DNA of 64,000 bases from Hyphomicrobiaceae bacterium (GTDB lineage Bacteria; Pseudomonadota; Alphaproteobacteria; Rhizobiales; Xanthobacteraceae). This document shows positions 5,982-64,000 of the stretch, one piece after another; the stretch's first letter is position 1; each line of letters starts with the position of its first letter. The position numbers and the translations under genes were made by a program. Location: assembly GCA_021324465.1 (NCBI GenBank), contig JAJPJB010000071.1:52624-116623 (forward strand), given 5' to 3'. The notes beneath the pieces were generated by a model, which saw only the letters and a list, made by a program, of their open reading frames with translations, searched no databases and was not told the DNA's origin.

Positions 5982-6515
5982 ATGAAACGCAAATGGATCG
6001 ATCAACTCCATGCCGCGCCCGCCGCCGCGGCCGCGCTCGCGGTGTTTGCGATCGGGCTTGCCACGCTCGGCGGCGCCTGGTTCTTCGAATATGTGCTGAA
6101 ATACCAGCCCTGCCCGCTCTGCCTCGAAGAGCGCATCCCCTATCATGTCGTCATCCCGCTGTCGCTGCTGGTGGCGATCGCCGCGCTGGCCGGCGCCCCG
6201 CGCAAGCTCATCATCGTCGGCTTTGCCGCGATCCTCGTTGCGGTGCTCTGCAATGTCGCGCTCGCCGGCTATCACTCCGGCATCGAATGGCATTGGTGGG
6301 CGGGTCCGGCCGATTGCACCGGCCAGATCACGGATTTCAAATCCGGCGGCGGCTTGCTGAGCCAGCTGCAGTCGATCCATGTCCCGCGCTGCGACGCCGC
6401 GGCCTGGCGCTTCCTCGGCATTTCGCTCGCCGGCTACAACTTTTTGATCTCGCTCGTGCTTGTGGCGCTGGCGGCCTATGGCCTGTTCGCCCCGCCGCCG
6501 CGGGCGCATGCCTGA
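5982..6515 (+). CDS. dsbB: disulfide bond formation protein DsbB
   Basis: A 177-residue inner-membrane protein with four hydrophobic helices. The first periplasmic loop has the catalytic CPLC pair (C44 and C47, within YQPCPLCLEE) and the second loop the other redox pair (C112 in ADCTG and C137 in PRCDA). DsbB passes electrons from DsbA to quinones and so drives disulfide formation in the periplasm. The spacing and four-helix layout match the family, in the shorter alphaproteobacterial form. A hairpin with a T-rich tail begins at the stop codon, so the gene is probably monocistronic. DsbA is not in the window. Confidence 0.9.
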   Translation: MKRKWIDQLHAAPAAAAALAVFAIGLATLGGAWFFEYVLKYQPCPLCLEERIPYHVVIPLSLLVAIAALAGAPRKLIIVGFAAILVAVLCNVALAGYHSGIEWHWWAGPADCTGQITDFKSGGGLLSQLQSIHVPRCDAAAWRFLGISLAGYNFLISLVLVALAAYGLFAPPPRAHA

Positions 6516-37998: not shown

Positions 37999-38991
37999 CT
38001 AATTGGATGCTGTCGTCGTCAGCCCGACGGCCGACGAACTGCGATACGTCCGTGCCGCATAGTCCTGCATATCGGCGAGCGTCAGTTGCCGCTCGTCGCT
38101 TGCCGTCGGCCGCCGCTCGAGCGGCAATGCGCCGGAATTCACCGTGCTCGAAAGCTTGTCCAGGAAGGCGACCAGCTCTCGCGGCTGCCGTTTCGGCGGC
38201 GGCTTGGGCTGATCCTGCGCCACGGCAACCGGCTTGGCCGCCGGCGGTTTCGGCGCTTCGCCCTGCGCCAGTTGCGGACGCTCCTTGGCCGCCACGTTGC
38301 GCCCTTGCTGCGCTATCAGCTGCGCCACCGGGTCGAGTTTCGGCCCGGCACCGCGCGGGTGCGGCAGTTGCGCCAGCTTGACCGAGCGCGCCGCCTCGGC
38401 TTGCGCCGTCATGATGCGATCTTCACTGGTGAACTTCGCGATCTCGGTCTTCACGAGGTTGCGAAAGTCGGGATTGAACTGCGCGCCCGGATGCGAGTCG
38501 TTGTTGGCGATATATTCGATATTCGCGCCTTCCAATTTCTTCGAGCCCATTCCGCCAAATGTCATCCACGGATTAGGATTGTAAACTTCGATGATGCGCC
38601 CGACCTTCCCCGCCCCCTTGAAGGGCGGATTCCAGCTCAGCATCGAAGGCTGCAGCGCAATGATCAGATCAATGTATTTCGAATTGTTGGCGACTGAGGG
38701 CGTGGCGTTCGCGCCCAGGCTGTAGCCGATCACCACCGTGTGTGTGCCTTCCGGCAGGCGGCTGATGTCCTCAACCAGCGTCGGCCATTCCTGATGCAGA
38801 TAAGTGTGGACCTCCACGTCCGGCATCATCCTGATTTCGGCCGTCAGCTCGACCAGCCCGATCGCCGGCAGCGGCCCGAACATCGGCCACAGCACGCCGA
38901 CAAAGGTCTTGGCTTGCGCGGAAGAGCAAAGCAATGCAGTACAGAAGGCAGCAAAGATCGCGAGTTTCTTCACGTTACACGTCCCCATCAT
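37999..38991 (-). CDS. exported alpha/beta-hydrolase-like protein (paralogue of 63223-63843)
   Basis: The 330-residue product has a signal peptide (VKKLAIFAAFCTALLCSSAQ) and a hydrolase-like domain with VVIGYSLGANATP, whose serine matches a nucleophile elbow, and NPWMTFGGMGSKKLEG followed by NNDSHPG, where the histidine could complete a catalytic set. It is closely similar over about 175 residues to the protein at 63223-63843. The region after residue 200 is unstructured, Pro/Gln/Ala-rich. I do not recognise a named family. ATG 38991 or the GTG at about 38973 (GGGGA upstream) may be the start. Confidence 0.7.
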   Translation of the reverse strand: MMGTCNVKKLAIFAAFCTALLCSSAQAKTFVGVLWPMFGPLPAIGLVELTAEIRMMPDVEVHTYLHQEWPTLVEDISRLPEGTHTVVIGYSLGANATPSVANNSKYIDLIIALQPSMLSWNPPFKGAGKVGRIIEVYNPNPWMTFGGMGSKKLEGANIEYIANNDSHPGAQFNPDFRNLVKTEIAKFTSEDRIMTAQAEAARSVKLAQLPHPRGAGPKLDPVAQLIAQQGRNVAAKERPQLAQGEAPKPPAAKPVAVAQDQPKPPPKRQPRELVAFLDKLSSTVNSGALPLERRPTASDERQLTLADMQDYAARTYRSSSAVGLTTTASN

Positions 38992-39314
38992 CGGCTGAGC
39001 CGCCAACGCGATACGCCTGTCACCGCGCCGGCGGCGGTCCGCCCGAACTGCTCACAGATGTCTGATTGCCCCCGACCCTGTGGCTCCCACGCCACAGGGG
39101 AACCAAAAATTGCGGGCATTTCTGGGACGCGAAAGGGAAACTTTGTGAACGAAAAGCGACCACGCGCCGGCGTGATTAACTTTTGGTGACGGGTTCACGA
39201 CGGGGAGCGAACCGAGCCTATCTGAGATCGTGACCGCCGTCGTCGGCTTCGCCGAAACCTATGGTTAAGGCGGCCCTACTAACGTCTTGGTCCACGGCAT
39301 TTTGAGCAGCAGCC
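38992..39314. other. divergent intergenic region without visible genes
   Basis: This 323-base stretch lies between the leftward hydrolase-like gene and the rightward serine hydrolase gene. It must contain both promoters. I see no clear repeat or RNA gene. Confidence 0.4.
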
Positions 39315-52424: not shown

Positions 52425-52576
52425 GAACTTTTCTCTGCGCTCCAATGCGACCGTGCAACATAAGGCAGGATAGCGACCAAGCGCGCAGTTGATCCTGTGA
52501 CGCAATTGACAGCAGATGTGCGGTGGCCATGCTGCTGCGCCAATTACCGAAACGCGACTTGCCAGGAGCGCCCCCA

Positions 52577-54049
52577 ATGCAAACCAGCAACGTCAAGGCC
52601 GCGATCGCCTATGACGATCTGCGCGAATGGCTTGCGCACGCCGAGCGCCTCGGCGAGGTGCGCCGGGTGTCCGGCGCGACCTGGCAAGAAGATATCGGTC
52701 TCGCGGCGGAAGCGGTGCTGCGCGCCGAGTACGGGCCCTGCGTCGTGTTCGATGATATCCCGGGCTGCCCGAAAGGGTTTCGCGTTCTGCTCAACATGTT
52801 TGCCGGCAAGCGCCGCAACATGACACTCGGCTTTCCCGATCACCTGAGCAAATGGGAATTGAGCGACGCCTATCGCGAGGCCTTTCTTGAGGAACAGAAG
52901 ATCATCCCGCACGAGATCGTCGCGGATGGACCGGTTTTCGAGAACGTGCTGATGGGCGAGGACATCGACATCACCAAGTTTCCCGCGCCCGTTTGGCACG
53001 AGAAGGACGGCGGCCGCTATATCGGCACCGGCACCTACAGCATCACCCGCGATCCGGACGAGAACTGGCTCAACGCCGGCGCCTATCGCGCGCAGCTGCA
53101 CGACCGCAAATCGGTCGGCATCCTGATCGCCGCCGGCCACCACGGCGACATTCACCGCGCCAAATACTTCAAGCGCGGCGAGCCGATGCCAGTCGCCATG
53201 GTGCTTGGCGGCGATCCGCTGACGTTCTTTTACGGCGGGCTGGAAGTGCCCTACGGCACGTTCGAGCTTGACGTGGTCGGCGGCTTGCGCGGCAAGCCGA
53301 TGCAGCTGGTGCGCGGCAAGGTCACCGGCCTGCCGTTTCCGGCCGCCGCCGAGATCGTGCTCGAAGGATTCGTCACGCAGGAGCGCAACGCGATTGAAGG
53401 GCCATTCGGCGAATGGACCGGCCATTATGCCGGCGGCGCCAAGCCGGCATCGGTGCTCGACATCAAGGCAATCTATCATCGCAACGACCCGATCCTCCTC
53501 GGCGTGCCGCCGATGGGCGCCGGGCCGGACGAAATGGCGCGCTACCGCGCGGTGCTGCGCTCGGCGACCATCAAACAGAACATGACCAATGCCGGCGTGC
53601 CCGGCGTGCAGCGGGTCTGGTGCCACGAGATCGGCGGCGCCCGGCTGTTGCACGGCGTCTCGATCACCCAGCGCTATCCCGGCCATGCCGTGCAGGCCGG
53701 CCATATCGCCGCGCAATGCGGCGCGTCCGCCTATGCGTCGAAGTATATCGTGGTGGTCGACGATGACGTCGATGTCACCGACCTCGACCAGCTGCTCTGG
53801 GCGATGCTGACCCGCACCGATCCGGCGCAGTCGATTCAGTTCATCCGCGGTTCCTGGGACTCGCCCGCCGATCCGGCGCTGCCGCCGTGGCGGCGTGCCG
53901 CGGGCGACATGACCCATTCGGTCGCCGTGATCGATGCCTGCCGGCCGTTCCACTGGCGCGACAAGTTTCCGCCCACCAACGCGCCGAGCCCCGAAGTCGC
54001 GCGCAAGGCGCGGGAGAAATTCGGCTGGCTGTTGGATGGGAAGAAGTAG
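52577..54049 (+). CDS. UbiD-family decarboxylase
   Basis: The 490-residue product matches prenylated-FMN-dependent decarboxylases: DIDITKFPAPVWHEKDGGRY, GTGTYSITRDP, then EGPFGEWTGHYAGG near residue 300 (with the conserved Glu of the E-R-E set), and a C-terminal VVDDDVDVTDLDQLLWA. UbiD enzymes decarboxylate aromatic or alpha,beta-unsaturated acids, reversibly in some cases; they need UbiX to make the cofactor, and no ubiX is here. ATG 52577 is preceded by AGGAG. The context (VOC, ABC binding proteins) favours a catabolic enzyme rather than ubiquinone synthesis. Confidence 0.9.
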   Translation: MQTSNVKAAIAYDDLREWLAHAERLGEVRRVSGATWQEDIGLAAEAVLRAEYGPCVVFDDIPGCPKGFRVLLNMFAGKRRNMTLGFPDHLSKWELSDAYREAFLEEQKIIPHEIVADGPVFENVLMGEDIDITKFPAPVWHEKDGGRYIGTGTYSITRDPDENWLNAGAYRAQLHDRKSVGILIAAGHHGDIHRAKYFKRGEPMPVAMVLGGDPLTFFYGGLEVPYGTFELDVVGGLRGKPMQLVRGKVTGLPFPAAAEIVLEGFVTQERNAIEGPFGEWTGHYAGGAKPASVLDIKAIYHRNDPILLGVPPMGAGPDEMARYRAVLRSATIKQNMTNAGVPGVQRVWCHEIGGARLLHGVSITQRYPGHAVQAGHIAAQCGASAYASKYIVVVDDDVDVTDLDQLLWAMLTRTDPAQSIQFIRGSWDSPADPALPPWRRAAGDMTHSVAVIDACRPFHWRDKFPPTNAPSPEVARKAREKFGWLLDGKK

Positions 54050-55545: not shown

Positions 55546-56466
55546 ATGAAGCTCGCCGTGCCGGACATGATCTCGAACTCATATTTTCCGGCGCAGGCCG
55601 CGGTCGAGCTTGGCTTCTTCAAGGCTGAGGGGCTCGATGTCGCGCTCGAACTGATCTTTCCGGTCAACAAGGCCTACCAGGCGCTGCGCGACGGCGCGGT
55701 CGATTTCGTCGGCGGCTCGGCGCATTCGGCGCTGGCCGCCTTCCCCGATTTCCGCGGCACAAAACTGATCTGCGCCCAGGCGCAAGGCATGTACTGGTTT
55801 CTGGTCATGCACGCCGATCTCAAGGCGCGGCGCGGCGATCTTGCCGTGGTCAAGGGCCGCAGCATCGGCGCGGCGCCCTGGGTCGACAAGGGCCTGCGCG
55901 GGCTCCTGGCCGAAGCCGGCATCGATCTTGCGCGCGATCAGGTCGAGATCGCGCCGGTGCCGGGTGCCGCCGGCGCCGGGATCAATTTCGGCGTCACTGC
56001 GGCCAAGGCGCTGGAAGCGCGCAAGATCGACGGCTTCTGGGCCAACGGCATGGGCGCCGAAGTCGCCGTGCGCCGCGGCATCGGCACCGTCGTGCTCGAC
56101 GTGCGTCGCGGCGACGGCCCAAAAGCCTGCTTCAACTATACGGCGGCCACCATCGCGACCACCGATGCCTTCATCGCGCGCGCGCCTGAACAGGCCGCCG
56201 CCGCAGTGCGGGCGATCGTCAAGACGCAAGCCGCCCTGAAGGCCGATGTCGCGCGCGCCGCCGCGGTCGGCAACAAATTATTTCCGCCGTCGGAAGCCGC
56301 GCTGATCACCGATCTCATTCGCCGCGACCTGCCCTATTACGATGCGACGCTCTCGCCGGCCTTCGTCGCCGGGATGAGCGACTTCGCGCAGCGCCAGGGT
56401 CTTATCGCGAGTCCGCTCGCCTACGAAGGCGTCGTGGCGACGCAATTCGCGCCATTGTGGCAGTGA
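55546..56466 (+). CDS. ABC transporter substrate-binding protein, NMT1/SsuA-like, apparently without signal peptide
   Basis: The 306-residue product has the NMT1/SsuA-like type II binding-protein fold: an opening strand MKLAVPDMISNSYFPAQAAV, ELGFFKAEGLDVALELIF (near 22-40), ALRDGAVDFVGGSAHSAL (near 45-62) and GAAPWVDKGLRGLLAEAG (near 105). These proteins bind sulfonates, thiamine precursors, nitrate or aromatic acids. Unlike usual members, no signal peptide is visible at the start used; a cytoplasmic or differently exported form is possible. It follows the LivK-like gene by 159 bases. A TauD-type dioxygenase is encoded nearby on the other strand. Confidence 0.78.
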   Translation: MKLAVPDMISNSYFPAQAAVELGFFKAEGLDVALELIFPVNKAYQALRDGAVDFVGGSAHSALAAFPDFRGTKLICAQAQGMYWFLVMHADLKARRGDLAVVKGRSIGAAPWVDKGLRGLLAEAGIDLARDQVEIAPVPGAAGAGINFGVTAAKALEARKIDGFWANGMGAEVAVRRGIGTVVLDVRRGDGPKACFNYTAATIATTDAFIARAPEQAAAAVRAIVKTQAALKADVARAAAVGNKLFPPSEAALITDLIRRDLPYYDATLSPAFVAGMSDFAQRQGLIASPLAYEGVVATQFAPLWQ

Positions 56467-57954: not shown

Positions 57955-58935
57955 GTGAGCGACAGTATAGTCGCGTCAATCAGTCGAGCGGAGGCGACGT
58001 CGCCCCCGAACATGGTCTTTATTCCCGCCGGCACGTTCCGCATGGGCTCCGACAAGCATTATCCCGAAGAAGCGCCGGCGCATCACGTTGCCGTCGACGG
58101 CTTCTGGATCGACCGCACGCCGGTGACCAACCGACAATTCAAAGAATTTGTCCGCGCCACCGGCCACGTCACTTTCGCGGAAATCCCGCCTGATCCAAAA
58201 AGTTATCCGGGCACCTTGCCGCACATGCTCTATGCCGGCTCGCTGGTGTTCACGCCGCCGCACCATCCGGTCGATCTGCGCGACTGGAGCCAATGGTGGA
58301 CCTTCATGCGCGGCGCCAATTGGCGCCATCCCTACGGGCCGAAGAGCAATATCAACGCGCTCGATAATCATCCCGTCGTGCATGTCAGCTATGGCGATGC
58401 GCTTGCTTACGCCAAATGGGCCGCCAAGGATCTACCGAGCGAAGCCGAATGGGAATTCGCCGCGCGCGGCGGACTCGACGGCGCCGAATTCGCCTGGGGC
58501 GATGAGTTCACGCCCGGCGGCCGGCATCGTGCCAATACCTGGCAGGGCAATTTCCCGTACGAGAACAGGTGCGAGGACGGGTTCGACCGCACCTCGCCGG
58601 TGATGGCGTTTCCGCCGAACGGCTACGCCATCTACGACATGATCGGCAATGTCTGGGAATGGACGGCGGACTGGTGGTCGTCGAAACACCAGGCCGACGC
58701 GGCCAAGGCGTGCTGCGTTCCGCAAAATCCGCGCGGCGGCCGCGAAGAAGACAGCTACGACGCCTGTCTGCCCAATATCAGGATTGCGCGAAAGGTTCTC
58801 AAGGGCGGATCGCATCTGTGCGCGCCGAATTATTGCCGCCGCTACCGTCCGGCCGCGCGCCACGCGGAAGCGGTGGATACATCCACAAGTCACGTCGGCT
58901 TTCGATGCGTCGTGCGAAGAGCAATAGGCAACTGA
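57955..58935 (+). CDS. formylglycine-generating enzyme (SUMF1/FGE family)
   Basis: The 326-residue product has the FGE-sulfatase domain: MVFIPAGTFRMGSD near residue 20, VAVDGFWIDRTPVTNRQFKE, LPSEAEWEFAARGG near 165, GNVWEWTADWW near 232, and GGSHLCAPNYC near 284-294. Cys289 and Cys294 match the two active-site cysteines (Cys336 and Cys341 of human SUMF1), so the enzyme is probably active in turning the sulfatase cysteine into formylglycine. No signal peptide is visible: it acts in the cytoplasm. It starts at GTG 57955. Its substrate is likely the sulfatase encoded 500 bases downstream. Confidence 0.93.
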   Translation: MSDSIVASISRAEATSPPNMVFIPAGTFRMGSDKHYPEEAPAHHVAVDGFWIDRTPVTNRQFKEFVRATGHVTFAEIPPDPKSYPGTLPHMLYAGSLVFTPPHHPVDLRDWSQWWTFMRGANWRHPYGPKSNINALDNHPVVHVSYGDALAYAKWAAKDLPSEAEWEFAARGGLDGAEFAWGDEFTPGGRHRANTWQGNFPYENRCEDGFDRTSPVMAFPPNGYAIYDMIGNVWEWTADWWSSKHQADAAKACCVPQNPRGGREEDSYDACLPNIRIARKVLKGGSHLCAPNYCRRYRPAARHAEAVDTSTSHVGFRCVVRRAIGN

Positions 58936-58953
58936 CAAACCGGAGGGAAGACA

Positions 58954-59305
58954 ATGTTGGGTTTTCGAGGGGCAGCCAAAATCGCTGCGATGATCGTTGC
59001 GGCCGCTTCGATCCTGCTTGCGGCGTCCGCGCCGTCGCGGGCGCAATCGGGCACAGTGCGACTGCATGTGGTTAAGGCCGGATTCACTTGCCGCCGTCGA
59101 CCTCGTCGGCACCGCGACCAATCTGCACAGGCCCTCTGACATCGTGGGCACCTATGGGGCGGCCGGCGCCGGCGCCACGTTTGTCGGCGGCGCGCAGGTC
59201 GCCACGCTGCAGAACCAGAACGGCGTCGTGCTGACCCTGCACGGCGTGCAGGCGGGCTTTCAGGTGTCGCTTGGTCTGGGAGGGATGACGCTGGCGATGC
59301 AGTGA
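58954..59305 (+). pseudogene. small exported protein with out-of-frame internal deletion
   Basis: The ATG at 58954 has GGAGG upstream and encodes a signal peptide (MLGFRGAAKIAAMIVAAASI) and then SGTVRLHVVKAGF. The frame then turns to basic nonsense, while the next frame continues as LAAVDLVGTATNLHRPSDIV, GTYGAAGAGATFVGGAQVAT, LQNQNGVVLTLHGVQ and GFQVSLGLGGMTLAMQ. Joined, these resemble a secreted family (KAGF...LVGTA.NL...DIAGTY...LQN.NGVVL) I recall from related bacteria, in which about 30 residues would lie between. An out-of-frame deletion is therefore likely at 59080-59090. The family name is not known to me. Confidence 0.7.
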
Positions 59306-59330
59306 AGCGGCCGTCCCTGGCCGCATGTTG

Positions 59331-59417
59331 AACTTCTGCCGCTGTAACCGCCCGGCCGCGCGCCATGCGGAAGCCGCGGATCCGCTCGGCCGCCATATCG
59401 GCTTTCGTTATGTCATC
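59331..59417 (+). pseudogene. remnant of a second FGE gene (C-terminal end only)
   Basis: The frame encodes NFCRCNRPAARHAEAADPLG followed by RHIGFRYVI. It matches the C-terminus of the intact FGE (NYCRRYRPAARHAEAVD...HVGFRCVV) at 18 of 29 residues, including the second active-site cysteine. The rest of the domain is absent. The identity is too low for a very recent duplication, so it is an older deletion relic or the trace of a lost paralogue. Confidence 0.8.
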
Positions 59418-59434
59418 ACAGTCGGGAGCGACCA

Positions 59435-61183
59435 ATGCCCAGAGAGAGTCAAGCAGAGACGTCGAACTTGGAACAAAGACACGCTGTTAATCGCCGCAAA
59501 ATCCTGCTCGGATCGACGGCTATCGCCGCGGCATCCGCACTAGCCGCATCCGCCACAGTGCCAACGGCGCAGGCGCAGCCCGCACCTGCAGGCGCCAAGC
59601 CGAACATCCTCGTCATCATGGGCGACGATATCGGCTGGTTCAATATCGGCGCCTATCACCACGGCATCATGTCGGGCAAGACGCCGAACCTCGACAAGCT
59701 TGCCGCCGAGGGCATGATCTTCACCGACTACTACGCCGAGGCGAGTTGCACCGCCGGCCGCGCCAATTTCATCACCGGGCAAATCCCGCTGCGCACCGGG
59801 CTGACCACGGTCGGCCAGGCCGGCGCCGATGTCGGCATTCCGGAGCAGGCGGTCACCGTCGCCACCGTGCTGAAATCGCTGGGCTACGCGACCGGGCAGT
59901 TCGGCAAGAATCATCTCGGCGACCAGAACAAATATCTGCCGACCGTGCACGGCTTCGACGAATTCTTCGGCTACTTGTACCATCTCGATGCGATGTCCGA
60001 TCCATATTGGTTCGACTACCCGCAGGACTGGATCGACAAATACGGCCCGCGCAATCTCGTTCACAGCTACGCGACCAACACCGACGATCAAACCGTGCAG
60101 CCGCGCTGGGGCAAGATCGGCAAGCAACGCATCGTCGACGAAGGCCCGCTCAAGCCGTTCAAGGACATGAGCGGCGATCACCAGTATTGGCAGAAGGGCC
60201 GCGACGCCAAGTATGACATGGAAACCTTCGACGAGGTTCTGGTCGAGCACAGTAAGCGCTTCATGGATCAGGCCAAGGCGGCCGGCAAGCCGTTCTTCAT
60301 CTGGCACAACACCACGCGCATGCACGTCTTCACCTATCTTCAGGCAAAGTATCAGGGGAAGATGAACTACGAGAGCAATTACGGCCTGGAAGAAGCCGGC
60401 ATGGCGCAGCTCGACGATGATATCGGCGACCTGCTCAAGCATCTCGACGACATCGGCGTCGCCGACAACACCATTGTCGTCTTCACCACCGACAACGGCG
60501 CCGAGGTCTTCACCTGGCCGGACGGCGGCATGACGCCGTTCCGCGCCACCAAGGGCACCGTCTACGAAGGCGGCTTCCGGGTGCCGTGCATTGCCCGCTG
60601 GCCGGGCAGGATCAAGCCGGGCACGGTCGAGAACGGCATCTTTTCCGGAATGGACTGGCTGCCGACGCTTGCCGCGGCGGCGGGCAATCCGAACATCACG
60701 CAGCAGCTGCTGCAGGGTGTAACGCTCGACGGCCGGACCTACAAAAACCATCTCGACGGCTACAACCAGATGGACCTGCTCACCGGCAAAGGACCATCGG
60801 CGCGCCACGAGGTCTTCTATTTCGCCGAAGCGAATCTCGGCGCCATCCGTATCGATGACTTCAAGTTCCAGTTCATGCAGCAGCCTTACGGCTGGCCGGG
60901 CGAAAAGGTGACGACCGACATGCCCACGATCGTCAATATCCGCCAGGATCCGTTCGAGCGAACGCCTTCGGTGCGCGGCGAGAGCCTCAATGACGCCGGC
61001 GGCGGATACATCAACGACTTTTTGGCGCGTGAATTCTGGCGCTTCGTCCAGGTGCAGCAGAAAGTCGCCGAGCTGGCGCAGACGGCGATCGAGTATCCGC
61101 CGATGCAGGCGCCGGCCTCGTTCAACCTCGCCGCCGTGAAAGAGAAGATTGATGCGGCGATGAAGAGCCACGAAGGGCAATAG
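59435..61183 (+). CDS. Tat-exported sulfatase (arylsulfatase type)
   Basis: The 582-residue protein has a Tat-like signal (NRRKILLGSTAIAAASALAA, residues 19-38), then KPNILVIMGDDIGW, where the aspartates bind Ca2+, and the sulfatase signature ASCTAGRANF with Cys105 as the residue to be changed to formylglycine. HNTTRMH and TTDNGAE are further catalytic or metal segments. Exact CTAGR is a known variant of C-x-(P/A)-x-R. Export by Tat suits cytoplasmic maturation by the FGE encoded upstream. It releases sulfate from an organic sulfate ester; the substrate is not known. ATG 59435 is the start. Confidence 0.92.
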   Translation: MPRESQAETSNLEQRHAVNRRKILLGSTAIAAASALAASATVPTAQAQPAPAGAKPNILVIMGDDIGWFNIGAYHHGIMSGKTPNLDKLAAEGMIFTDYYAEASCTAGRANFITGQIPLRTGLTTVGQAGADVGIPEQAVTVATVLKSLGYATGQFGKNHLGDQNKYLPTVHGFDEFFGYLYHLDAMSDPYWFDYPQDWIDKYGPRNLVHSYATNTDDQTVQPRWGKIGKQRIVDEGPLKPFKDMSGDHQYWQKGRDAKYDMETFDEVLVEHSKRFMDQAKAAGKPFFIWHNTTRMHVFTYLQAKYQGKMNYESNYGLEEAGMAQLDDDIGDLLKHLDDIGVADNTIVVFTTDNGAEVFTWPDGGMTPFRATKGTVYEGGFRVPCIARWPGRIKPGTVENGIFSGMDWLPTLAAAAGNPNITQQLLQGVTLDGRTYKNHLDGYNQMDLLTGKGPSARHEVFYFAEANLGAIRIDDFKFQFMQQPYGWPGEKVTTDMPTIVNIRQDPFERTPSVRGESLNDAGGGYINDFLAREFWRFVQVQQKVAELAQTAIEYPPMQAPASFNLAAVKEKIDAAMKSHEGQ

Positions 61184-61692: not shown

Positions 61693-61845
61693 CTACGCCG
61701 GGCAGCTCTCCAGGCCGGTGCAATTGCCGACCGTGTAGGCGCCCGTTCTCCATGGTTCGGCCGCCCGTTCGATTGCGTCATCAGAAAGCTTCTCAAAGAA
61801 GATCTGGTCTTCAAACTGGCCGCATTCGTATCTGGCTTCACTCAT
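61693..61845 (-). CDS. 50-codon RiPP precursor-like peptide
   Basis: The peptide has an acidic, amphipathic leader (MSEARYECGQFEDQIFFEKL, then SDDAIERAAEPW) and a short polar C-terminal part RTGAYTVGNCTGLESCPA with two cysteines and several Thr/Ser. AAGGATC lies about 8 bases ahead of ATG 61845. An L-S-D-(D/E)-A-(I/L)-E-x-A-A helix just before a small Cys/Thr core is the layout of many RiPP precursors. No maturase, protease or exporter is encoded in the remaining 2 kb, so maturation genes, if any, are elsewhere. It could instead be a small regulatory or stress peptide. It lies in the 611-base gap 61564-62174 and is read toward the sulfatase operon. Confidence 0.5.
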   Translation of the reverse strand: MSEARYECGQFEDQIFFEKLSDDAIERAAEPWRTGAYTVGNCTGLESCPA

Positions 61846-62174
61846 AGCATTGATCCTTTCATACATTGTGATCTCTGCTTTGCCGAAAATCGGACGGCGT
61901 CGATCAGCTTAGCACCATCGGGCGTGCCAGTCTCTGCTTGTGATAAGAATAGCCCGGCAGATGGGTTGTCGATGCTTAGCGGAGCTTTAACAAACGCGCA
62001 GCAAGTCATTTCAGTCGAGCCGAGCAAGCGACACACGCCGAGCAGCCCGCTGTTTTGCGCTGAGCCAACACAGTCCGGACGTCGACATAAGGTTATTCGA
62101 CCCGTAGCGGAGGTGCTTACCGCGGAATATCCTGGGCTTCCGTCGACCGGAGCATTTCCGACCGGAGCGTTTCG
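61846..62174. other. divergent intergenic region between the 50-codon gene and the isomerase gene
   Basis: The 329-base region must carry promoters for both genes. It is less GC-rich than its neighbours. I see no strong inverted repeat or RNA gene. Short repeated GACCGGAGC(A/G)TTTC units occur near 62147-62170 just ahead of the isomerase start. Confidence 0.4.
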
Positions 62175-62873
62175 ATGGCTGCTGATCCGATAGATTTCTG
62201 GTTTACGATGGGCAGCACGTACTCGTATCTGAGCGTGATGCGGCTGCGCGAATTGGAACAGTCGACCGGTATCCGCTTTCGCTGGCGTCCGTTCCACTTG
62301 CTCGTCATCCTTGAGGAGATGAAGCATATCCCTTTCGCGGATAAGCCGGCAAAATGCGCCTATATGTGGCGCGATATCGAGCGACGCGCGGCAATGTATG
62401 GCGTGCCCGTTTCATTGCCCGTGCCCTATCCTGCCCGCCAGTCAATCGTGGCGAACCTGGTGGCGATCGTCGGCATGCGCCAGGGCTGGGGCATCGATTT
62501 TGTCCGCGCCGCCTATCGCCGCTGGTTCCAGCTTGGGCAGGAGACCGGCAGTGAGCCTAACCTGTCGGAGAGCTTGCGGGACATCGGTCAGGAGCCGCAG
62601 TCGGTGCTCGCCTTGGCGAATGCGGCCGAAACAACGAACGCTTTAAGGGCGGAAACGGAGCTGGCGAAACAGCTCGGCATTTTCGGTTCGCCGACATTCG
62701 TCGTAGGGCGCGAGCTGTTTTGGGGCGATGATCGTCTGGCGGATGCCGTCAATTGGTACAGGCGGGGCCAGCTGGGGCCTGCGGCCGAAATGTCGCGACC
62801 TGCAACGACGCGGCGGAATACGCAGACAACAACGTCGTTAGACATTCCTGAGCCCGACAGTCTCGGCGGATGA
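62175..62873 (+). CDS. DsbA-fold 2-hydroxychromene-2-carboxylate isomerase-like protein
   Basis: The 232-residue product belongs to the thioredoxin-fold kappa-GST/NahD group: IDFWFTMGSTYSYLSVMRLR, where the first serine replaces the catalytic Cys/Ser; FRWRPFHLLVIL; and C-terminal GIFGSPTFVVGRELFWGDDR with the cis-proline. NahD needs glutathione and isomerises a chromene intermediate of naphthalene breakdown, but many members have other roles. The last 25 residues (after GPAAEMSRP) are disordered. No naphthalene genes are nearby, so the substrate is open. Confidence 0.85.
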   Translation: MAADPIDFWFTMGSTYSYLSVMRLRELEQSTGIRFRWRPFHLLVILEEMKHIPFADKPAKCAYMWRDIERRAAMYGVPVSLPVPYPARQSIVANLVAIVGMRQGWGIDFVRAAYRRWFQLGQETGSEPNLSESLRDIGQEPQSVLALANAAETTNALRAETELAKQLGIFGSPTFVVGRELFWGDDRLADAVNWYRRGQLGPAAEMSRPATTRRNTQTTTSLDIPEPDSLGG

Positions 62874-63222
62874 CGGCCATCGTGCAGGGCGCCGCAACGG
62901 TATTCCGCCGCAACGGGCGCCTACCGATGCTCGCCGGCGAAGCCGTCGCCGCCCGCCTTTCCGGTTCGGGGGCACGACCACCCCACCGCGGCCGCACAGC
63001 GGTTAAATGCGCACGAAGTTGTCTGTGAGCCAGGCGGCAGGCCGGCCGATAGCGCCGCAAGGGCCTCGCATGCCGGTTATGCATCCTCTATGGAGGGGTC
63101 GCGTGCTGCAGTGGCCTCTACGGGAATAAGCGGACTATGATCGCAATGCACGCTCCACTTTGATCGAAAACTGCAACACTGGTCTGTGTGTTCCAAGCCG
63201 ACCGTCGCCGGGGATCAAGCGG
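62874..63222. other. intergenic region without visible gene
   Basis: This 349-base stretch separates the isomerase gene and the last exported protein gene. I see no RNA gene, repeat or convincing reading frame. Confidence 0.4.
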
Positions 63223-63843
63223 GTGAGGAAACGTTCAATCGCTCTTGCCGTGTGCTGCTCTTTGATCTGCTCGCCCGGCTACGCGACCACGTTTATCGGC
63301 GTCCTATGGCCGTTGTTTGGGCCGCTTGCCGCGCCTGGACTGGTTGAATTGGTCGCCGAGCTTCAATCAATGCCCGATGTTGAAGTGGTAACCTATTGGC
63401 ATCCGGCATGGTCGCAACTGGTCGACGACATCAATCGTCAGCCTGAGGGAACACACATCCTGGTTATCGGCTACAGCTTGGGCGCAAACAATGCGGTGTT
63501 GGTAGCAAACAACGCCAATTACATCGACTCGATCATTGCGCTGCAGCCCTCGATATTCACGTCCAATACGCCGCTGACCGGCAAAGTGGGACGGATGGTC
63601 GAGATCTATAATCCAAATCCATGGATGACCTTTGGCGGAATGGGATCCCAGAAGCTGGTGGGCCCAAATATCGAATACATCACGAACAACGATTCACATC
63701 TGGGAGCCCCGTACGATTCGCAATTCCGTGATTTGGTGAGAAGCGAGATCACCAGGCTTGCCGCGCAACCGGCTCCGAATGCAGCGCAGACAAAAATGCC
63801 TGACGCGTCTCCTGCCAATGCGCGTCATATCGACGATCGATAG
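63223..63843 (+). CDS. exported alpha/beta-hydrolase-like protein (paralogue of 37999-38991)
   Basis: The 206-residue product has a signal peptide (VRKRSIALAVCCSLICSPGY, GTG start at 63223) and the same core as the 37999-38991 protein: TFIGVLWPLFGPLAAPGLVE, LVIGYSLGANNAV (nucleophile-like serine) and NPWMTFGGMGSQKLVGPNIE followed by NNDSHLG. It lacks that protein's long Pro/Gln-rich tail. A TTG at 63160 would add an unsupported 21 residues. The pair are clear paralogues. Family and substrate are unknown to me; the fold suggests a periplasmic hydrolase or a binding protein derived from one. Confidence 0.7.
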   Translation: MRKRSIALAVCCSLICSPGYATTFIGVLWPLFGPLAAPGLVELVAELQSMPDVEVVTYWHPAWSQLVDDINRQPEGTHILVIGYSLGANNAVLVANNANYIDSIIALQPSIFTSNTPLTGKVGRMVEIYNPNPWMTFGGMGSQKLVGPNIEYITNNDSHLGAPYDSQFRDLVRSEITRLAAQPAPNAAQTKMPDASPANARHIDDR

Positions 63844-63897
63844 TCGCGGGGAGCCAATGGCGGCCGCAAATGACGCGTTTGTGATGTCACCGTGGTG

Positions 63898-63926
63898 TTG
63901 ACATTGGTCACTGGTTGCGTTACATG
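63898..63926 (+). promoter_or_regulatory. possible sigma-70-type promoter near the window end
   Basis: TTGACA (63898-63903), a 17-base spacer and TACATG (63921-63926) form a plausible promoter for a gene beyond the window. The -10 match is weak. Confidence 0.3.
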
Positions 63927-64000
63927 AGCCGCCAATCCCGCTCGCCAAAGGGCCTGCGCCGAAGGCATGTCGGCGCGGGGAGCGGGAGGGCGGTGCCCGC

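Follow-up and report, generated by a model that had tools for sequence, protein, structure and literature searches.

Lanthipeptide biosynthesis in which one enzyme serves dispersed precursors has so far been described mainly in marine cyanobacteria. The available text of a 2023 paper gives substrate-tolerant LanM enzymes with dispersed substrates as known only from prochlorosin-like marine cyanobacterial systems (PMC10027976), although, in the available portion of a 2025 review, estimates are quoted for homologous clusters among alpha- and gammaproteobacteria (PMC12328550). A Cys-Cys-Cys (CCC) zinc triad is linked to substrate-tolerant, ProcM-type enzymes in the accessible parts of three sources (PMC11251773, PMC10027976, PMC12328550). 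Among the titles and abstract openings of the open-access literature we found no paper on the Xanthobacteraceae precursor family treated here, which is weak evidence of absence.

Here we analyze a short gene in a 64,000-nucleotide stretch of DNA (the window; positions 52624-116623 of contig C51) from G000, the genome of a soil bacterium, an assembly of 107 contigs that is 99.67% complete. An earlier note on this DNA had described a RiPP precursor, orphan or remotely matured; that reading held, and it could be sharpened to a class II lanthipeptide by homology to a precursor encoded beside a lanthipeptide synthetase (LanM) gene. The window gene encodes a paralogue, located on another contig, of that LanM-adjacent precursor, and we consider it likely that the LanM encoded on contig C9 would mature it in trans to give a lanthipeptide with two predicted rings.

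The Window Gene and Its Conservation

The minus-strand frame translates to MSEARYECGQFEDQIFFEKLSDDAIERAAEPWRTGAYTVGNCTGLESCPA, followed by a stop (Table 1). The frame matches the description in the earlier note, its own ribosome site included, and a purine-rich stretch occupies a similar position in the LanM-adjacent precursor genes that were read out. An alternative in-frame ATG at 61866 would give a 57-aa product, and this form is present as database entry P0002, on a contig of 417 kb. The predicted leader carries the family motif SD-x-A-[LI]-E-x-A-A in the version LSDDAIERAA, and a putative Gly-Ala cleavage site would separate it from the core. Ring-capable residues of the core are T38, T43, S47, C42 and C48, from which rings T38-C42 and T43-C48 are predicted. 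Across the nine precursor rows of profile A2, window included, T38, C42, G44, L45, C48 and P49 are invariant and position 43 is Ser or Thr.

Table 1. Features of the precursor gene and of the genes beside it, in window coordinates.
Feature	Position	Strand	Basis
Precursor gene, 50 codons + stop	61693..61845	-	Translation and homologues
Ribosome-binding site AAAGGA, 8 nt before ATG	61854..61859	-	Sequence
Predicted leader, residues 1-36, MSEARYECGQFEDQIFFEKLSDDAIERAAEPWRTGA	61738..61845	-	Alignments and HMM
Predicted core, residues 37-50, YTVGNCTGLESCPA	61696..61737	-	Aligned rows, core pattern
DsbA-family (isomerase-like) gene, between precursor and conserved neighbour	62175..62873	+	PF01323
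Conserved neighbour gene	63160..63843	+	82-87% protein identity to the copy beside the G010:C364 orphan precursor

The peptide (P0001) had no Pfam match and no NCBIfam match up to E 1. The frame was confirmed as real, beyond chance. With the window row and its nearest relative left out, the other 23 of the 25 leader rows of profile A3 were made into a leader HMM, which ranked the frame first of the 1292 frames in the window (E 7e-4; runner-up E 6), and the precursor profile, which does include the window row, matched it at E 2e-23. Over its full length the peptide has 33-40% identity to all but one of the eight other A2 rows and 61% identity to P0003. The earlier note had proposed to look for conservation, and frame and leader are indeed kept in related genomes. 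An Rfam search of 61-64 kb of the window returned no match, and one 14-nt inverted repeat was observed in 63-64 kb.

Selection on the gene bears on whether it might be a decaying, unmodified duplicate that yields no product. Compared with seven relatives, the window gene showed dN below dS each time, with the caveat that dS was high and just 46-49 codons could be compared. Frame, ribosome site and motif are undamaged, none of the four predicted ring residues is lost, and a metagenome homologue 60-61% identical to the window peptide retains nearly the same core. We therefore regard decay as unlikely, even though the leader is divergent, the family includes a frame at G010:C510 that has apparently decayed, and no promoter or terminator consensus was found. 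At 34% identity to the first A3 row, tied lowest of 24, the window leader is among the most divergent of the family, and its recognition by LanM is for this reason not assured.

A Precursor Family With a Shared Leader and Varied Cores

The leader common to the relatives contains EEILTFEVSDEALEAAA, and its motif is of the VSDEALEAAA type. We counted 47 distinct members, including a doubtful Lys-rich frame on G339:C80 (L131) and leaving out two frames judged spurious (453 aa in G012, 304 aa in G009), the apparently decayed G010:C510 frame and a duplicate of the window (L019). In the L131 frame (6225-6428, +) a Lys/Arg-rich N-terminus is joined to a TVSDEALERSA motif and a short Cys tail. A further oddity is P0004, a 78-aa database protein with the leader motif in tandem (EQTEEEILSFQVSDEA twice) before a single core.

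A TxxxC[ST]x(3-5)C core is present in 23 of the 47 members, window included (20 of 43 parsed cores and 3 of the 4 others, read by eye); the remaining members have different Cys-containing cores. Cys accounts for 92 of the 1090 residues that follow the leader motif, and for 7 of the 1273 residues in the leaders. Pairwise identity averages 0.44 (ungapped) for leaders and 0.34 (gapped) for cores, with a shuffled-core baseline of 0.25, in a set of 48 rows that holds the window frame twice. The pattern of a conserved leader and a variable, Cys-containing core that the earlier note had suggested looking for is thus present: the cores vary, and a Cys preceded by Ser/Thr occurs in 43 of 43 tabulated cores (of 47 members). 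Some cores recur across species, namely SFPxxPTVxxLxxCC in seven genomes, PTASxxxxPPNCC in three and YGSYCFTC in two.

In a protein database, 7992 candidates were scored against the A2 profile and 3490 of them reached E <= 1e-3. The precursors are frames of about 50 residues, and among the best 120 of the 3490 matches all that carry a name from their source are called 'hypothetical protein', the others being unnamed. The named loci of the family belong to Hyphomicrobiales/Xanthobacteraceae metagenome bins, bog_931 among them, and the genus is probably GTDB BOG-931.

A Lanthipeptide Synthetase on Contig C9

Within G000, the peptide search brought up a single paralogue of the window frame (41% identity, E 3e-5). 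It lies at C9:8650-8787, encodes MKHTIEQTEEEILTFQVSDEALEAAAATVKENAGAFTLAFCSGLDTCPA and adjoins, in divergent orientation, a 1124-codon gene for a class II lanthipeptide synthetase LanM (TIGR03897, 741 bits, cut-off 304). The enzyme has PF13575 (DUF4135) and PF05147 (LANC_like) domains, is the sole LANC_like match found in G000, and aligns to LicM2 (6st5, E 8e-58) and CylM (5dzt). Its zinc motifs are WCHGAIG and LCCGTLG, with LCCG standing opposite the LCHG of LicM2. Judged by these motifs, the enzyme has a Cys-Cys-Cys zinc triad like the one that published work describes for ProcM.

Near the LanM gene lie a cyclic-peptide-type ABC exporter gene (TIGR01194, 327 bits, cut-off 286) and an SPFH-domain gene. 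Both are found near LanM again in G001 and G017, and the exporter also in G276 and G334. A dedicated C39 leader protease was sought in G000 and none was found; the sole C39 domain found, on a third contig, belongs to a type I secretion transporter of the HlyB type (TIGR01846), and C39 double-glycine processing was accordingly lowered as a candidate.

A third precursor of G000 (L135, 8494-8787, -; core SFPNAPTVSILVMCCGND) is encoded on contig C107. It lies at 40.6 kb, inside a contig of 78.8 kb that is separate from the LanM contig. Cores like it occur in six other genomes, where the surrounding gene order is common to one locus pair only.

Co-occurrence of Leader and LanM

Among 391 genomes of the family Xanthobacteraceae, the leader was found in 13 (E <= 0.001) and a LanM over the cut-off in 19; 12 genomes have both, one the leader only, seven LanM only and 371 neither (Fisher p 2.9e-17). 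LanM matches that fell short of the cut-off were dropped; they made up half of the 40 match rows (20, with G008 among them). The leader-only genome, G016, is 60% complete. The LanMs of exactly the 12 genomes with both form one group, all with the CCG motif, in which the 11 other enzymes are 56-63% identical to the C9 enzyme. The eight LanMs outside this group, including a second LanM of G396, are at most 36% identical, and the leader was found in none of the seven genomes that carry only other LanMs. Seven of these eight also have the CCG motif, and the motif alone is therefore no marker of the system.

A precursor adjoins the group LanM in 10 of the 12 genomes (G000, G001, G004, G010, G017, G276, G334, G333, G396, G109), so that the repeated maturase neighbours that the earlier note had named as possible support do occur among relatives. 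In G005, the 7.7 kb contig that carries LanM showed no precursor. In total 10 of the 47 precursors are next to a group LanM and 37 are on contigs where no group LanM was found, one of the latter in G016, where no LanM was found at all. Many contigs of the relatives are short, and 'unlinked' therefore often means just 'on another contig'; the exporter lies on the same contig as the G339:C226 precursor, which probably belongs to a cluster split by the assembly. Between one and eight precursors were found per genome, with three on three contigs in G000. Among 20 genomes of the genus, seven have credible precursor members and six have a single LanM that passes the cut-off. A leader search at order level (397 genomes) matched only G000 and a 362-aa frame of G763, the latter judged spurious by its length; few genomes of the genus are in that set, since its 397 genomes were drawn evenly.

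A small peptide, secreted or regulatory, that stays unmodified or forms a disulfide bond would also fit the two Cys of the core and would need no lanthionine enzyme. However, one LanM group is present in 12 of the 13 leader-bearing genomes and relatives are physically linked to LanM genes, which makes such a peptide very unlikely. The small regulatory peptide that the earlier note had offered as an alternative gained no support.

Contig Ends and the Surroundings of the Window Gene

The earlier note had reported no nearby maturation genes. This holds for the bases present, the sole LANC_like match being on another contig, but C51 stops at base 64000 of the window, about 2.2 kb past the frame and 157 bp after the conserved neighbour gene, and the absence may be partly a contig-end effect. 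The gene order of relatives leaves room for a LanM or a YcaO cluster past the C51 end. At E 0.01 neither Pfam nor NCBIfam gave a match for the neighbour gene. On G010:C364 an orphan relative of the precursor adjoins a copy of this gene in matching orientation, and the locus therefore seems older than the species. The DsbA-family gene was not found at the G010 locus, and around its orthologues in G004 and G005 nothing else of the window site was in common. Elsewhere in the window, a paralogue of the neighbour gene is encoded at 38002-39051 (-), and within 57955-61183 a gene like those for formylglycine-generating enzymes (PF03781) lies close to one for a sulfatase (PF00884); a short frame between the two, at 59325-59543, looks by eye like the C-terminal end of the PF03781 gene, as if it were a partial duplicate.

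It is possible, though on balance doubtful, that the window gene simply belongs to a single lanthipeptide cluster, made to look dispersed by assembly breaks, with the same LanM maturing its product. The nearby C51 end would fit, as would the position of LanM, 9 kb into C9. On a single contig, G017 carries UbiD, a binding protein and a BamA-like gene, followed further on by a precursor and LanM. The first two of these genes have orthologues 75-80% identical at window positions 52523-54049 and 55546-56466, and the rest of the G017 contig matches the left end of C9 in fitting orientation. This gene order implies that LanM may sit about 11 kb or more beyond the window frame. A gap of no less than about 11 kb, filled by unrelated genes, would still separate the two, and the G001 arrangement differs, its BamA-like gene being 25 kb from LanM. 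No direct overlap of the right end of C51 with C9 was found. The last ~106 bases of C51 (window 63895-64000) are repeated in reverse where C8 begins and in part at C35, and C9 and C42 have their first 107 bases in common; since these end sequences recur, the C51 and C9 breaks lie at repeats. The C107 member, away from LanM and well inside its contig, also argues against a single cluster.

At the G010:C364 locus a SagB dehydrogenase gene lies 2.4 kb, and a gene for a fused YcaO/leader-binding protein 3.9 kb, from the precursor (TIGR03604 246 bits, TIGR03882 142 bits), and these genes likely form an azole-peptide cluster. The YcaO-type neighbours that the earlier note had thought of are thus real at this locus, but the cluster has its own Cys/Gly-rich precursor-like frame about 240 bases upstream. 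This frame (L016, 839-1330, +) ends in the tail CRCGGCGRGCRCGWRGCGGCGGCGGCGGGCC and lies upstream of both the YcaO and SagB genes. By analogy, the window peptide might be the precursor of a linear azole-containing peptide, its YcaO/SagB cluster lying just past the contig end, and YcaO clusters are reported, in the available text of one source, from prochlorosin-bearing Synechococcus (PMC10783134). We hold this to be improbable, slightly more so than decay, given the separate precursor-like frame in G010 and a window core scaffold that is that of LanM-adjacent precursors. Moreover, no YcaO relatives were found at the other precursor loci fetched or in ~1.35 Mb of G000 stretches, about one third of the genome.

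Proposed Maturation and Comparison With Known Systems

If the window peptide is matured in trans by the C9 enzyme, as we favour, its conserved leader (VSDEALEAAA-type in the family) would dock on LanM. The DUF4135 domain would then dehydrate Thr38 and Thr43, and the LanC domain, with its CCC triad, would close the two methyllanthionine rings, T38-C42 and T43-C48. Cleavage by some protease behind Gly-Ala would follow, and the ABC exporter of the cyclic-peptide type encoded near LanM would carry out the product, whose role would most likely be that of a secreted signal or antagonist. One LanM would in this way serve at least three precursors in G000, on C9, C51 (the window) and C107.

More broadly, and with somewhat less confidence, we lean towards the view that soil and bog Xanthobacteraceae hold a second prochlorosin-like combinatorial system, with one CCC-type LanM, dispersed precursors, a non-Nif11 leader, recurrent scaffolds and thousands of unannotated metagenome members. 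The recurrent scaffolds in that reading, and as tentative as it is, would be TxxxC[ST]GLxxCP, SFPxxPTVxxLxxCC, PTASxxxxPPNCC and YGSYCFTC. If true, this would add a new enzyme-leader pair, and a leader-distinct soil case would let one ask whether the CCC triad goes with many substrates; it would also bear on why dispersed lanthipeptides persist without known function.

Among known systems, the LicM2 and CylM class II lanthipeptide synthetases share the DUF4135 and LanC-like architecture of the C9 enzyme, but have a CHG cyclase motif where the C9 enzyme has CCG, and precursors of the present family are also found away from LanM. Linear azole-containing peptides made with YcaO and SagB are brought to mind by the cluster that accompanies the orphan precursor on G010:C364, although that cluster has a Cys/Gly-rich precursor-like frame of its own and the other precursor loci fetched showed no such cluster. 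The closest likeness is to the prochlorosins of marine picocyanobacteria (ProcA/ProcM, SyncA/SyncM), which, as far as the available text of the sources goes, have a single CCC-triad LanM with the CCG motif and several precursors that share a leader, differ in their cores and are spread over the genome (PMC10027976, PMC11251773, PMC11667668). In contrast to prochlorosins, the window family has a leader without a match to the Nif11 family model: of five precursors scanned, one reached TIGR03798, at E 0.056 and 13.7 bits vs. a cut-off of 32.3. Because this leader test failed, we do not file the window system as a prochlorosin. The leader is also shorter, about 30-36 residues compared with the 67 quoted for ProcA3.3, and one to eight precursors were found per genome where prochlorosins number in the tens. 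Finally, the hosts are Xanthobacteraceae, not cyanobacteria, and the family differs from the prochlorosins in keeping one two-ring scaffold in about half of its members (23/47).
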